Shown here one piece after another: positions 57,475 to 61,499 of a stretch of DNA of 64,000 nucleotides. Location: NCBI RefSeq assembly GCF_026283925.1, contig NZ_JAPDPF010000002.1, positions 186,001 to 250,000 on the forward strand, read 5' to 3'. Position 1 is the first letter of the stretch; each line of letters starts with the position of its first letter. The notes under the pieces are model-generated. The model saw nothing but the letters and a program-made list of their open reading frames with translations. It was not told the DNA's origin and searched no databases. The position numbers were made by a program, and so were the translations under genes. This stretch comes from Dyella halodurans (GTDB lineage Bacteria; Pseudomonadota; Gammaproteobacteria; Xanthomonadales; Rhodanobacteraceae).

Positions 57475-58920
57475 ATGAGAAGGTTGACATTGATGATGCT
57501 CGCCGCCGCCTCGGTCGCGCTTGCCGGCTGCATGGTCGGGCCGAACTACCAGCGTCCCACGGTGGAGACGCCGGAGCAGTGGCGCATCGACCTGCCCAAG
57601 GCCGAGGAAGTCGTCAATACCAAATGGTGGGAGCAGTTTGGCGATCCGGTACTGAATCAGCTGATCGAAACGGCGTTGCGCGACAACCTGGATGTGCGTG
57701 TCGCCGCGGCGCGCGTCGACCAGTTCATTGGCATCCTGCGCACATCGCGCGCACAGGCATTGCCACAGATCAGCTACAACGCGAACGCCAGCCACAACCG
57801 CACCAGCGAAGTCGGCATGCCGCCGCTGTCGCCCGCGCTTGACCCCGAATTCAACCTCTACCAGGGGACGCTCGCCGCGTTCTGGCAGATCGACTTGTTC
57901 GGCCGCGTGCGCCGTCTCAACGAGGCGGCGCAGGCCCAGGTCTATGCAAGCGAACAGGCCCAGCGCGGTGTGGTGTTGTCACTGGTGGCGGGCGTGGCCA
58001 ATAGCTACATCACCCTGCGTGGACTGGATCGCCAGCGTGAGATCGCGGTGGCGACGGCGGCCAATTTCGGCGAGACCATGCGCATCTTCGAGTTGCGCTA
58101 CAAGTCGGGCCTGGTCTCCGAAACCGAAGTGTCGCAAGTGCGCTCGCAGTTCAAGCTGGCGCAAACCGCGATCCCGGCCATCGACCAGCAGATCGCGATC
58201 CTGGAAAACGGCATCTCGGTCCTGCTCGGCCACAATCCGGGCCCGATCCCGCGTGGCAAGTCGATCGACGAGTTGATGCTACCGGTGATCCCGGCGGATA
58301 TCCCTTCGACCGTGCTGGAACGGCGTCCGGACATCCTGCAGGCGGAGCAAAACCTGGTTGCGGCCAATGCCAATGTCGGCGCCACGCGCGCGCTCTACTA
58401 TCCGAACATCTCCTTGACCGGCCTGCTTGGATCGGTCAGCACGGCCTTCAGCGACTTCCTGACCGGCCCTGCGCAGGCGTGGTCGGTGGGGGCAGGGCTG
58501 ACCGGACCGATCTTCACTTCGGGCGCGATTCGCGGGCAGGTGCGCTCAGCCGAGGCACAGAAGCAACAGGCCGAGCTGTTCTACCAACAGGCGGTGTTGA
58601 ATGCGTTGGGCGATACCAACGACGCGTTGATCGGCGCGCAGAAGACGATCGAGCAGGTGGTCTTGCAGCAGCAGCGCGTGGATTCCTTGCGCGAATACGC
58701 GCGACTGTCCCGCCTGAAATTCGAAAGCGGCCTGATCGGCTATCTCGATGTACTGGTCTCGGAAAACGACTTGTTTGCCGCCGAACTGTCACTCGCCAGC
58801 CTCAGCGCGCAACGCTATACGCAGGTGGTGAGTGTGTACCAGGCGATGGGCGGCGGTTGGGTGGATCTTGCCGATGCCATGACGCCGGTGCCGCTAGGTT
58901 CGGTGCAGACACACAAGTAA
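57475..58920 (+). CDS. RND outer-membrane efflux channel (NodT/OprM family lipoprotein)
   Basis: A 481-residue TolC-like channel. The ATG at 57475 with GGGGAA upstream gives a signal peptide ending in the lipobox LAGC, followed by MVGPNYQRPTVETPEQWR, the NodT-type start. FWQIDLFGRVRRLNEAA and DLFGRVR-type segments recur in two homologous halves (second: GAGLTGPIFTSGAIRGQVRSAEAQ). It forms the trimeric exit duct for the adaptor and pump encoded 6 kb upstream. Between them lie only the 204-residue protein and the Mrp genes; the gap to the last Mrp gene is 89 bp. Confidence 0.92.
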   Translation: MRRLTLMMLAAASVALAGCMVGPNYQRPTVETPEQWRIDLPKAEEVVNTKWWEQFGDPVLNQLIETALRDNLDVRVAAARVDQFIGILRTSRAQALPQISYNANASHNRTSEVGMPPLSPALDPEFNLYQGTLAAFWQIDLFGRVRRLNEAAQAQVYASEQAQRGVVLSLVAGVANSYITLRGLDRQREIAVATAANFGETMRIFELRYKSGLVSETEVSQVRSQFKLAQTAIPAIDQQIAILENGISVLLGHNPGPIPRGKSIDELMLPVIPADIPSTVLERRPDILQAEQNLVAANANVGATRALYYPNISLTGLLGSVSTAFSDFLTGPAQAWSVGAGLTGPIFTSGAIRGQVRSAEAQKQQAELFYQQAVLNALGDTNDALIGAQKTIEQVVLQQQRVDSLREYARLSRLKFESGLIGYLDVLVSENDLFAAELSLASLSAQRYTQVVSVYQAMGGGWVDLADAMTPVPLGSVQTHK

Positions 58921-58997
58921 TGGCTTGCGCCTGACCGATGACGTATGCGTAACATGTGTTTTGCGATACAAAGAACCGAGCCACAGGGATACAACGC

Positions 58998-59390
58998 ATG
59001 ATCGAGCAGATTCAAGGTTTGCCGCCGGGCACACTGGGCTTTCGCGCCAGCGGGCAGGTGACCGCCGCAGACTACGAGCGGGTGCTGGTGCCGGATATCG
59101 AGGCGGCGTTTGCCTTGAATCGCAAGTTGCGCCTGCTTTACCACGTCGGTCCGGATTTCACCGGCTTCGATCCGGGCGCGATGTGGGACGACATGATGCT
59201 CGGCTTCCGCCATTTCAGCGGCTGGGATCGCGTGGCGCTGGTCACCGACGTGGCCTGGCTACGCATTGCCGCGTCCGCCATGGGTTTCGTGGTGCCTGCC
59301 GAGTTCCGCCTCTTCAGCAATGCCGAACTGGTGCTGGCGATCGACTGGATTCGCGAGCCGAAGCCGGCGACGGAAGAAGAGAACAAATGA
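58998..59390 (+). CDS. SpoIIAA-like (DUF3478) protein
   Basis: A 130-residue cytoplasmic protein with the STAS-like SpoIIAA pattern: IEQIQGLPPGTLGFRASGQVTAADYERVLVPDIE, then LRLLYHVGPDFTGFDPGAMWDD and RVALVTDVAWLRI. These small proteins are widespread and poorly understood; some bind lipids or regulate stress responses. ATG 58998 has CAGGGA upstream; an in-frame ATG 42 bp upstream has no such site. Its last bases overlap an ATGA that opens the long version of the asnB leader frame. Confidence 0.82.
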   Translation: MIEQIQGLPPGTLGFRASGQVTAADYERVLVPDIEAAFALNRKLRLLYHVGPDFTGFDPGAMWDDMMLGFRHFSGWDRVALVTDVAWLRIAASAMGFVVPAEFRLFSNAELVLAIDWIREPKPATEEENK

Positions 59391-59473
59391 AACTGTTTGC
59401 GGGGTCCTTGTCAGCGGCCACGGCTTGTGTTGAAGTCGGCGCCATGTCCTGCCTCCGCGCCCGTTTTGTTTCC

Positions 59474-59575
59474 ATGACTGCCACCGCCGCTTCCGCGACG
59501 GCAGGCACTCATGCGTGCGCGCTGAATAACAACGCCAATAACAATACCCGCATCGACGGGTGGGCCGGCGTGTAA
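59474..59575 (+). CDS. Asn-rich leader peptide upstream of asnB
   Basis: A 33-codon frame whose codons 18-24 read Asn-Asn-Asn-Ala-Asn-Asn-Asn (59525-59545) and which stops at TAA 59573-59575, just before the terminator and asnB. Six Asn codons in seven upstream of an asparagine synthetase gene is what a ribosome-mediated attenuator needs. The start is uncertain: ATG 59474 is the shortest option; ATG 59444 and ATG 59387 (coupled to the preceding gene by ATGA, with a purine-rich GAAGAAGAG before it) are in the same frame and would give 43 or 63 residues plus. None has a strong Shine-Dalgarno except the last. Confidence 0.75.
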   Translation: MTATAASATAGTHACALNNNANNNTRIDGWAGV

Positions 59576-59612
59576 GCAGAAACTGCAAACATTCACGCAA
59601 AAAGGCCCGCTC
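59558..59612 (+). promoter_or_regulatory. Predicted antiterminator pairing of the asnB attenuator
   Basis: Bases 59558-59566 (GGGTGGGCC) can pair with 59604-59612 (GGCCCGCTC), the 5' arm of the terminator, giving 9 pairs including two G-U. The left arm starts 13 nt after the last Asn codon and ends before the leader stop. A ribosome stalled at Asn codons would leave it free to pair, blocking the terminator; a ribosome at the stop codon would cover it. The pairing was found by eye. Confidence 0.65.
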
Positions 59613-59627
59613 CCAGCGGGCCTTTTT
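59599..59627 (+). terminator. Intrinsic terminator between leader peptide and asnB
   Basis: A 13-bp perfect stem, AAAAAGGCCCGCT (59599-59611) and its complement (59615-59627), with a CCC loop, is followed by GTTTTT. It lies 23 bp after the leader stop and 41 bp before the asnB start, the position of the terminator in classical amino-acid attenuators. Confidence 0.9.
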
Positions 59628-59668
59628 GTTTTTCCACTGCACGAAAAACCAACCAAGGGACCTGTGTC

Positions 59669-61342
59669 ATGTGTTCGATCTTCGGCATGTTCGACCTGCA
59701 GCCAGGCGATGACCTGGCGGCATTGCGCCAGCAGGCGCTGGAGCTTTCCCAACGCCAGCGCCATCGTGGCCCGGACTGGAGCGGTGTGTTCGTCGACGCC
59801 GGTGTGATCCTGGTGCACGAGCGCCTGGCCATCGTCGACCCGGCCAGCGGCGCGCAACCACTGCGCTCGCGCGATGGCGCGCTGGCGTTGGCGGTGAACG
59901 GCGAGATCTACAACCACCGCGAGTTGCGCGCCGCCAGCGGCTATGACTTCACCACGGGTTCGGACTGTGAGGTGATCAATGCGCTGTATCGCGAACCGGT
60001 CAGCCCGCTTGAATGGGTGGCCAGACTCAACGGCATCTTTGCCTTTGCCCTGTGGGACAGCGAGGCAGCGCGCTATCTGATCGCCCGCGATCCGATCGGC
60101 GTCTGCCCGCTGTACTGGGGGCATGATGGCGAAGGGCGGCTGTGCGTGGCCTCGGAGATGAAGGCGTTGTCCAGCCTTTGCGCCGACGTGGCGCCGTTTC
60201 CACCGGGCCATGTGTATGACAGTGCCGATGGCGAGCTGCGTCGTTATTACCACAAGCCCTGGCGCGATTACTCCCATACCCAAGGCCACGACGTTTCGTC
60301 GCAGGATTTGCGCGAGGCCTTCGAGCAGGCGGTGCATCGCCAGCTGATGACGGACGTGCCCTATGGCGTGCTGCTCTCCGGCGGCCTGGATTCCTCGCTG
60401 GTGGCTGCCTGCGCCGCGCGATTCGCGCGTCACCGGGTGGAGGACGACGACCGCGGCGAGGCCTGGTGGCCGCGCCTGCATTCCTTCGCGATCGGGCTGG
60501 AAGGCTCGCCCGATCTCGCCGCCGCCCAGGTCGCTGCGGATGCGCTGGGTACGGTGCATCACGGCTTCGTCTATACGTTCTGGGAAGGGCTGGACGCGTT
60601 GCCCGAAGTCATTCGCCATATCGAAACTTATGACGTCACCACCATCCGCGCCTCGACGCCGATGTACCTGCTGGCGCGTCGGATCAAGGCCATGGGCGTG
60701 AAGATGGTGCTGTCAGGTGAAGGTTCGGACGAGATCTTTGGCGGCTACCTGTATTTCCACAAGGCGCCGTCGGCCGAGGCGTTCCACGAGGAAACCGTGC
60801 GCAAGCTGGATGCACTGCATAGCTACGACTGCCTGCGCGCGAACAAGTCGATGATGGCCTGGGGCGTGGAGGCACGCGTGCCGTTCCTGGACCTGGCATT
60901 TCTCGACGTGGCCATGGGCCTGGATGCGCGGCACAAGATGGCGGGCAACGGACGTATCGAGAAGGCCGTCTTGCGCGAGGCGTTCCAGGGTGCCTTGCCG
61001 GACGAGATCCTGTGGCGGCAGAAGGAGCAGTTCAGCGATGGCGTCGGCTATGGCTGGATCGACGGCCTCAAGGCGCATGCGGAGCAGGCGATCAGCGATC
61101 GCGAATTTGCCGCGGCGGCGACGCGCTTCCCGCACAACACGCCGGCGACCAAGGAGGCTTACCTGTATCGGCGCATCTTCGAACGCTACTATCCGGGACA
61201 GGCCTGCGCGGCGACCGTGCCGGGCGGCAAGTCCATCGCGTGCTCCTCACCCGCGGCCCTGGCCTGGGATCCGACGTTTGCAGGCGCGGCCGATCCGTCC
61301 GGGCGTGCGGTGCGTGGCGTGCATCAGCAGGCGTTGGCGTAA
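59669..61342 (+). CDS. asnB: Asparagine synthetase B (glutamine-hydrolysing)
   Basis: A 557-residue enzyme that makes asparagine from aspartate, glutamine and ATP. Cys2 (MCSIFG) is the glutaminase nucleophile; HRGPDWSG, NGEIYNHRELR and GSDCEVI belong to the class II amidotransferase domain (residues 1-200). The synthetase domain has the ATP pyrophosphatase loop LLSGGLDSSLVAA, SGEGSDEIFGGY and RVPFLDL. The length equals E. coli AsnB (554). AAGGGA precedes the ATG by 8 bp. Its leader frame with Asn codons and terminator suggests control by charged tRNA-Asn. The C-terminus ...SIACSSPAALAWDPTF is typical. Confidence 0.96.
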   Translation: MCSIFGMFDLQPGDDLAALRQQALELSQRQRHRGPDWSGVFVDAGVILVHERLAIVDPASGAQPLRSRDGALALAVNGEIYNHRELRAASGYDFTTGSDCEVINALYREPVSPLEWVARLNGIFAFALWDSEAARYLIARDPIGVCPLYWGHDGEGRLCVASEMKALSSLCADVAPFPPGHVYDSADGELRRYYHKPWRDYSHTQGHDVSSQDLREAFEQAVHRQLMTDVPYGVLLSGGLDSSLVAACAARFARHRVEDDDRGEAWWPRLHSFAIGLEGSPDLAAAQVAADALGTVHHGFVYTFWEGLDALPEVIRHIETYDVTTIRASTPMYLLARRIKAMGVKMVLSGEGSDEIFGGYLYFHKAPSAEAFHEETVRKLDALHSYDCLRANKSMMAWGVEARVPFLDLAFLDVAMGLDARHKMAGNGRIEKAVLREAFQGALPDEILWRQKEQFSDGVGYGWIDGLKAHAEQAISDREFAAAATRFPHNTPATKEAYLYRRIFERYYPGQACAATVPGGKSIACSSPAALAWDPTFAGAADPSGRAVRGVHQQALA

Positions 61343-61353
61343 CGGCTTGTCTT

Positions 61354-61485
61354 CCTCTCCCCTCCGGGGAGAGGACTGAGGTGAGGGGCGGGTGGTCGCG
61401 ATGAGGTGGCTACGAAGCACGCTTCGTCTGCATTTCGTCGCAAGATTGCCCCCTCACCCCAACCCTCTCCCCAGTGGGGAGAGGG
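61354..61485. repeat. REP-like inverted doublet between asnB and AI-2E transporter gene
   Basis: Two GC-rich hairpins, CCTCTCCCC-TCC-GGGGAGAGG (61354-61374) and CCCTCTCCCC-AGT-GGGGAGAGGG (61463-61485), are flanked inside by GGTGAGGGG (61380-61388) and its complement (61450-61458). The two units are therefore in inverted orientation, a BIME-like arrangement of the CTCTCCCC element seen often in Xanthomonadales. It lies between convergent genes and probably ends transcription from both sides. Confidence 0.8.
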
Positions 61486-61499
61486 AGCTGACGGCGCGG

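Follow-up and report, generated by a model that had tools for sequence, protein, structure and literature searches.

Why should a short reading frame crowded with asparagine codons, followed by an intrinsic terminator, lie directly in front of asnB, the gene for a glutamine-hydrolysing asparagine synthase? An earlier note on this locus read the arrangement as an attenuator in which a ribosome stalled on the Asn codons would decide between termination and read-through. Ribosome-mediated attenuators occur in Proteobacteria in the trp, his, thr, ilv, leu, and phe operons. With these, the asnB locus shares a leader frame rich in codons for the amino acid that is produced and mutually exclusive antiterminator and terminator structures, and it differs from them in that the amino acid is asparagine and the target is asnB. 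In this study, we followed the proposal through the 64-kb stretch of DNA in which the locus lies (the window) and through related genomes, and we conclude that what is found is very probably best explained by ribosome-mediated attenuation of asnB transcription in response to charged tRNA-Asn.

Results

An asparagine-rich leader in front of asnB

The host genome is 4.69 Mb in size and its closest named relatives by AsnB are Dyella species (family Rhodanobacteraceae, order Lysobacterales). The following features define the gene and its leader:

59444–59575, + strand: asnB leader reading frame, 43 codons, MSCLRARFVSMTATAASATAGTHACALNNNANNNTRIDGWAGV followed by the stop codon; position of the ATG conserved, probably leaderless (5′ AUG)
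59525–59545, + strand: putative regulatory codons, six Asn in seven, read from the sequence
59669–61342, + strand: asnB, asparagine synthase B, 557 aa

The AsnB protein scores 855.7 bits against NF006949 (cut-off 499) and carries the Pfam domains Asn_synthase and GATase_7; a second AsnB-like protein with 34–40% identity is encoded in the host genome. The run of Asn codons reads AAT AAC AAC GCC AAT AAC AAT, exactly, base for base, where the earlier note had placed it, and the leader peptide ends in NNNANNN...GWAGV, i.e. in ALNNNANNNTRIDGWAGV, before the stop. The stop codon TAA (59573–59575) lies 23 bp upstream of a 13-bp terminator stem (59599–59627) and asnB comes next, so that the sequence confirms the proposed order as well. 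The leader peptide has no match in NCBIfam.

Such an arrangement is rare. Only one frame with at least three Asn in eight codons ends within 60 nt before a terminator in the 64 kb, both strands considered, and this is the asnB leader; Markov resampling of one strand, done 20 times, never gave the combination. Moreover, the DNA pattern AAYAAYAAYNNNAAYAAYAAY (two Asn triplets separated by one codon) is present a single time in the whole 4.69-Mb genome, at the asnB leader. Over 184 loci, 28.6% of the codons in the last 22 positions of the leader are Asn, compared with 1.25% of the residues of the window's AsnB. The N-terminal part and the length of the leader are highly variable, and most leaders have 20–48 codons. 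Leaders of only 22 codons, e.g. MIRIAANNANTNNARNLGRVGV, are seen at loci L187, L191, L192, L195, and L197 of genus g16, where the promoter spacing is unchanged.

Conservation in Rhodanobacteraceae and other families of the order

The earlier note had made its interpretation depend on the conservation of the Asn codons and of the stem in relatives. Both are conserved in 108/110 loci of a first set, in 26/26 further loci of the same family, and in 51/64 loci from the order's other families, and this comparison strongly supports the attenuator interpretation.

The first set consisted of the window, 80 loci, and 29 more same-family loci among the matches listed; further same-family asnB matches, more divergent ones among them, lie outside it. 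A locus was counted when a leader with at least three Asn in eight codons ended 5–70 nt before a GGCCCG[CT]...[AG]CGGGCC hairpin, and at both loci that were missed the contig ends before asnB, at 123 and 60 nt. The 108 positive loci represent 89 distinct stretches, one of them empty (a locus cut at its 5′ side), and some genomes are present in both subsets. The maximal number of Asn per eight codons was seven in 24 of these loci, six in 65, five in 14, four in three, and three in two. Dyella, Rhodanobacter, Frateuria, Fulvimonas, and Dokdonella are among the carriers.

The 26 further same-family loci and the loci of other families were scored with a more general terminator detector. The latter came from 80 genomes selected from those families, which gave 64 asnB matches; the 51 positives, from 25 genera, include one locus (L145) that was positive in one pass and dropped by a start check in another. 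One of these families (f2) is, we infer, that of Xanthomonas, Stenotrophomonas, and Lysobacter. Among the 13 negatives, 10 have a more distant AsnB (62–72% identity). By eye, L140 resembles the positives in its terminator and leader end, with Asn codons that are only scattered, and L176 combines an Asn-rich frame with a terminator that is bulged; L173, whose AsnB is 77% identical, has no leader.

Outside the order, a search of 274 genomes of the class found one further AsnB at E < 1e-150 (63% identity), and its leader is absent. When 229 genomes of the class were searched with NF006949, six matches lay outside the order, three of them scoring above the family cut-off; five of the six have no leader, and the sixth (L220) has only a seven-codon frame with three Asn, which we take as chance. 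Model R1 matches 370/398 genomes, a figure that is inflated by partial matches to the terminator only and does not represent the number of leaders. Full-length R1 matches were used only as leads, and leaders were judged from the regions upstream of asnB.

Terminator, antiterminator, and the position of the ribosome

The RNA elements downstream of the Asn codons are as follows:

59546–59561, + strand: hairpin 1:2, ACCCG/CGGGT, with segment 1 at 59546–59550; from folds, with a weak signal over the set
59558–59572, + strand: left arm of the antiterminator (segment 2), GGGTGGGCC plus GCGTG; from folds
59594–59612, + strand: right arm of the antiterminator, CACGC plus GGCCCGCTC (segment 3); from folds
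59599–59633, + strand: intrinsic terminator, 13-bp stem at 59599–59627 (segments 3:4) and T tract to 59633; from sequence and fold

The terminator stem is formed by 59599–59611 and 59615–59627 and is followed by TTTTT, and the fold adds the pair 59598–59628. The region 59520–59640 folds at −45.2 kcal/mol compared with −31.2 for shuffles (z = −4.2, 200 shuffles). A simple terminator scan did not report this terminator, probably because its stem runs into the T tract. In an alignment of 40 sequences, picked for diversity from the 108 leader-positive loci, four pairs of the lower stem show compensatory changes and the upper stem GGCCCGC/GCGGGCC is invariant.

The competing pairing proposed in the earlier note, 59558–59566 with 59604–59612, is a helix of 9 bp that forms in folds of the transcript ending before the right arm of the terminator. 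The antiterminator is longer than had been proposed, as a second helix of 5 bp pairs 59568–59572 with 59594–59598. The antiterminator and the terminator, both of which use segment 3, are mutually exclusive.

We computed how a ribosome would change these pairings. With the A site at 59537–59543, in the second Asn triplet, nine nucleotides of segment 3 are in the antiterminator and no 1:2 pairs form. When the ribosome occupies the first Asn triplet, five pairs of hairpin 1:2 form and just five nucleotides of segment 3 are in the antiterminator; with the A site at 59552 or beyond, none are. Because a stall at the second triplet frees nine antiterminator nucleotides and one at the first triplet five, a moderate shortage of asparagine, with late stalls, should in this model open asnB better than its complete absence. 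In full-length RNA, the terminator was preferred at every ribosome position tried, so that the choice between terminator and antiterminator must be kinetic.

Over the set, folds with the last Asn codon masked place at least 6 nt of segment 3 in pairs with the leader end in 152/158 distinct sequences. Segment 2 pairs with segment 3 even without a ribosome in 141/162 truncated folds, and hairpin 1:2 is more stable than its shuffled mean in only 119/158 distinct sequences; because of this ribosome-free pairing and the weakness of hairpin 1:2, the basal state is not specified by the folds alone. The count of 0/162 with the stop codon in the A site is true by construction and is given no weight here.

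A change of the leader end together with the terminator in one lineage

In the 40-sequence alignment, 86.4% of the antiterminator cells are paired compared with 24–48% when the arms are slid against each other. However, 499 of 500 column shuffles reach at least 86.4% (mean 87.8%); the inner helix was counted in the register of Rhodanobacter, and Dyella has another. The antiterminator is thus conserved and not covarying within the family. The covarying arms that the earlier note expected to find are present in the lower stem of the terminator and in one change between lineages, and not in the antiterminator within the family.

This change between lineages is seen at 15 loci, where the terminator core is quite different, ACCCGCATC, and the leader end matches it. 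In the GGCCCGC group (n = 138), the end of the leader pairs at −19.2 kcal/mol with its own segment 3 and at −12.4 with that of the ACCCGCATC group, and the leaders of the latter (n = 15) at −22.8 kcal/mol with their own segment 3 and at −14.6 with that of the GGCCCGC group. Leader end and terminator thus appear to have changed together in one clear case. With the cores CCCGCGC (n = 11) and CC[CT]GCAC (n = 17), the own segment 3 was no better or only slightly better than that of the main group. When segment 3 was swapped between loci, which is a weak test within a lineage, the energies were −26.2 kcal/mol for the own arm, −23.0 for foreign arms, and −17.2 for a shuffled leader end; foreign arms beat the own arm in 23% of swaps for the median locus and in 73% for the window's leader.

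These comparisons bear on the possibility that the Asn-rich frame encodes a small protein acting in trans, the terminator being its own 3′ end or serving both. Such a protein would agree with the conserved promoter and start of the leader frame, and it would have a precedent in the peTrpL peptide of Sinorhizobium (PMC7298713). The sequence of the peptide, however, varies widely except in the Asn run and the codons of segment 2, its length ranges mostly over 20–48 codons, and its last codons in the ACCCGCATC group differ together with the terminator, all of which argues against such a protein and makes it very unlikely.

Codons rather than bases are conserved in the Asn run

In the Asn clusters of 162 distinct leaders there are 444 AAT and 431 AAC codons (513 and 499 across all 184 loci). 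Since the 3′ positions of the Asn codons vary freely, it is the codons rather than the bases that are conserved, and this synonymous variation lends indirect support to translation of the leader. AAT accounts for 51% of the Asn codons of the leader clusters (444/875) compared with 11% in asnB (AAC 645, AAT 79 in 102 leader loci). The excess of AAT is perhaps due to avoidance of RNA structure or to queuosine in tRNA-Asn. In view of this difference in codon use, the switch might read the queuosine state of tRNA-Asn besides its charging, although we consider this improbable.

The freedom of the 3′ positions also speaks against an RNA element that senses asparagine or tRNA directly, as a riboswitch or T-box would, with the reading frame being incidental. 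Asn-specific T-box riboswitches are known before asn genes in Firmicutes, which makes such an element worth considering: like the arrangement described here, they read the charging of tRNA-Asn and control asn genes by termination, but they do so with no leader peptide or ribosome, the RNA binding the tRNA directly. In Rfam searches, the region 59300–59800 gave no match to a T-box, the element with stem I and a T-box antiterminator, or to a riboswitch up to E = 1, and nine related loci gave no match of any kind at the gathering score. Direct sensing by the RNA is accordingly highly improbable.

A putative conserved promoter close to the leader ATG

Two conserved boxes precede the leader:

59408–59413, + strand: −35 box TTGTCA of the putative leader promoter
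59431–59436, + strand: −10 box TGAAGT, ending 7 nt before the leader ATG

A −35 box starting with TTG is present in 154/159 distinct contexts compared with 31/159 shuffled ones, and the −10 box lies 6–7 nt from the ATG in 144/159 compared with 30/159. The spacer between the boxes is 17 nt in the window and 17 or 18 nt in 152/159 contexts. The 159 distinct contexts came from 184 loci, and the distance was taken to an ATG in frame with the leader; at two loci the stretch read contained no ATG, and at several others the script picked a different one. A simple promoter scan listed no promoter at 58800–60200, its rule requiring an A at the second position of the −10 box, which TGAAGT lacks.

Because the −10 box ends 6–7 nt before the ATG, transcription would start at or near it, and the leader mRNA is probably leaderless, beginning at the A of the ATG at 59444 or close to it. 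The trpL leader of Sinorhizobium meliloti is a leaderless attenuator leader (PMC7298713), and PMC8079986 describes leaderless leu, trp, ilv, met, and thr leaders in Streptomyces lividans and names leaders for Ala, Ile, Leu, Met, Thr, and Trp. In these systems, the mRNA has its 5′ end directly at the leader AUG or beside it, as we suppose for asnB; they differ in that they serve other amino acids, and in that the start proposed here is deduced from promoter spacing alone.

The gene 5′ of the leader (58956–59390) encodes a SpoIIAA-like product (Pfam PF11964).

Among 102 leader loci with a full and rightly oriented flank, a SpoIIAA-like neighbor is present in 71 and absent in 31, and because of these 31 loci the leader seems tied to asnB independently of the gene upstream. 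That the terminator is merely the ordinary intrinsic terminator of that gene, the Asn-rich frame having arisen by chance, fits its location between two genes on the same strand, but this reading is almost certainly wrong and was rejected in view of the conserved promoter-like boxes and ATG between that gene and the terminator, the 31 loci in which the gene is absent, and the conservation of the Asn run as amino acids.

Discussion

Charging of tRNA-Asn and the proposed mechanism

The evidence thus favors a ribosome-mediated attenuator, and the genomes checked have a suitable route for charging tRNA-Asn. AsnRS is above its cut-off in 24/24 genomes and GatB was found in 0/24, so that free asparagine should set the charging of tRNA-Asn. 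AsnA was found in 0/20 genomes, and its absence from the genomes checked makes AsnB the likely main source of asparagine.

In the mechanism that we propose, transcription would start at or next to the ATG at 59444 and ribosomes would load on the leaderless 5′ AUG. When asparagine is plentiful, the ribosome would pass the Asn codons and cover segment 2, segment 3 would pair with segment 4, and transcription would stop in the T tract (59629–59633). When tRNA-Asn is uncharged, the ribosome would stall in the Asn run. With its A site on the second Asn triplet (59537–59545), its leading edge would mask segment 1, which would leave segment 2 free for its pairing (9 bp + 5 bp) with segment 3 and allow RNA polymerase to read into asnB.

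A probable new specificity for a known type of attenuator

The earlier note knew of no established attenuator for asparagine, and what we found is consistent with this. Vitreschak et al. (2004) is reportedly the main comparative study of proteobacterial attenuators. Our search of the literature on asparagine or asnB and on leaderless starts, mostly outside subscription papers, found no Asn leader peptide or asnB attenuator among the matches listed. Asparagine and asnB are likewise absent from the main text of the attenuator survey PMC2965389. In the window, Rfam gave matches to the Thr, Trp, and Phe leaders that were all below the gathering score, those to Thr and Trp being on both strands. 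It seems, then, that a known type of attenuator has a new amino-acid specificity at this locus, with a probable leaderless leader. We think it likely that Rhodanobacteraceae and two more families of the order possess a previously unrecognised class of Asn-specific attenuators before asnB, with a leaderless 5′ AUG and with at least one joint change of the terminator and the leader end.

If this is true, asparagine joins the amino acids that are read by ribosome-mediated attenuation, and the leader would be a compact, probably leaderless sensor of asparagine starvation. The model gives a testable account of asnB control across a large bacterial order, for which the 162 distinct natural variants are a ready comparative series.

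Repeats around asnB

Two kinds of repeats were seen near asnB. On its 3′ side in the window, positions 61351–61487 hold a 38-nt inverted repeat, 84% complementary and with a 61-nt gap, that is made of two CCTCTCCCC..GGGGAGAGG palindromes and resembles a small dispersed repeat. In some Rhodanobacter loci (L023, 1253–1459; L027, 1368–1458), repeats of about 60 nt with the near-palindromic core CGGCCATCCATGGCCG lie between the terminator of the attenuator and asnB.
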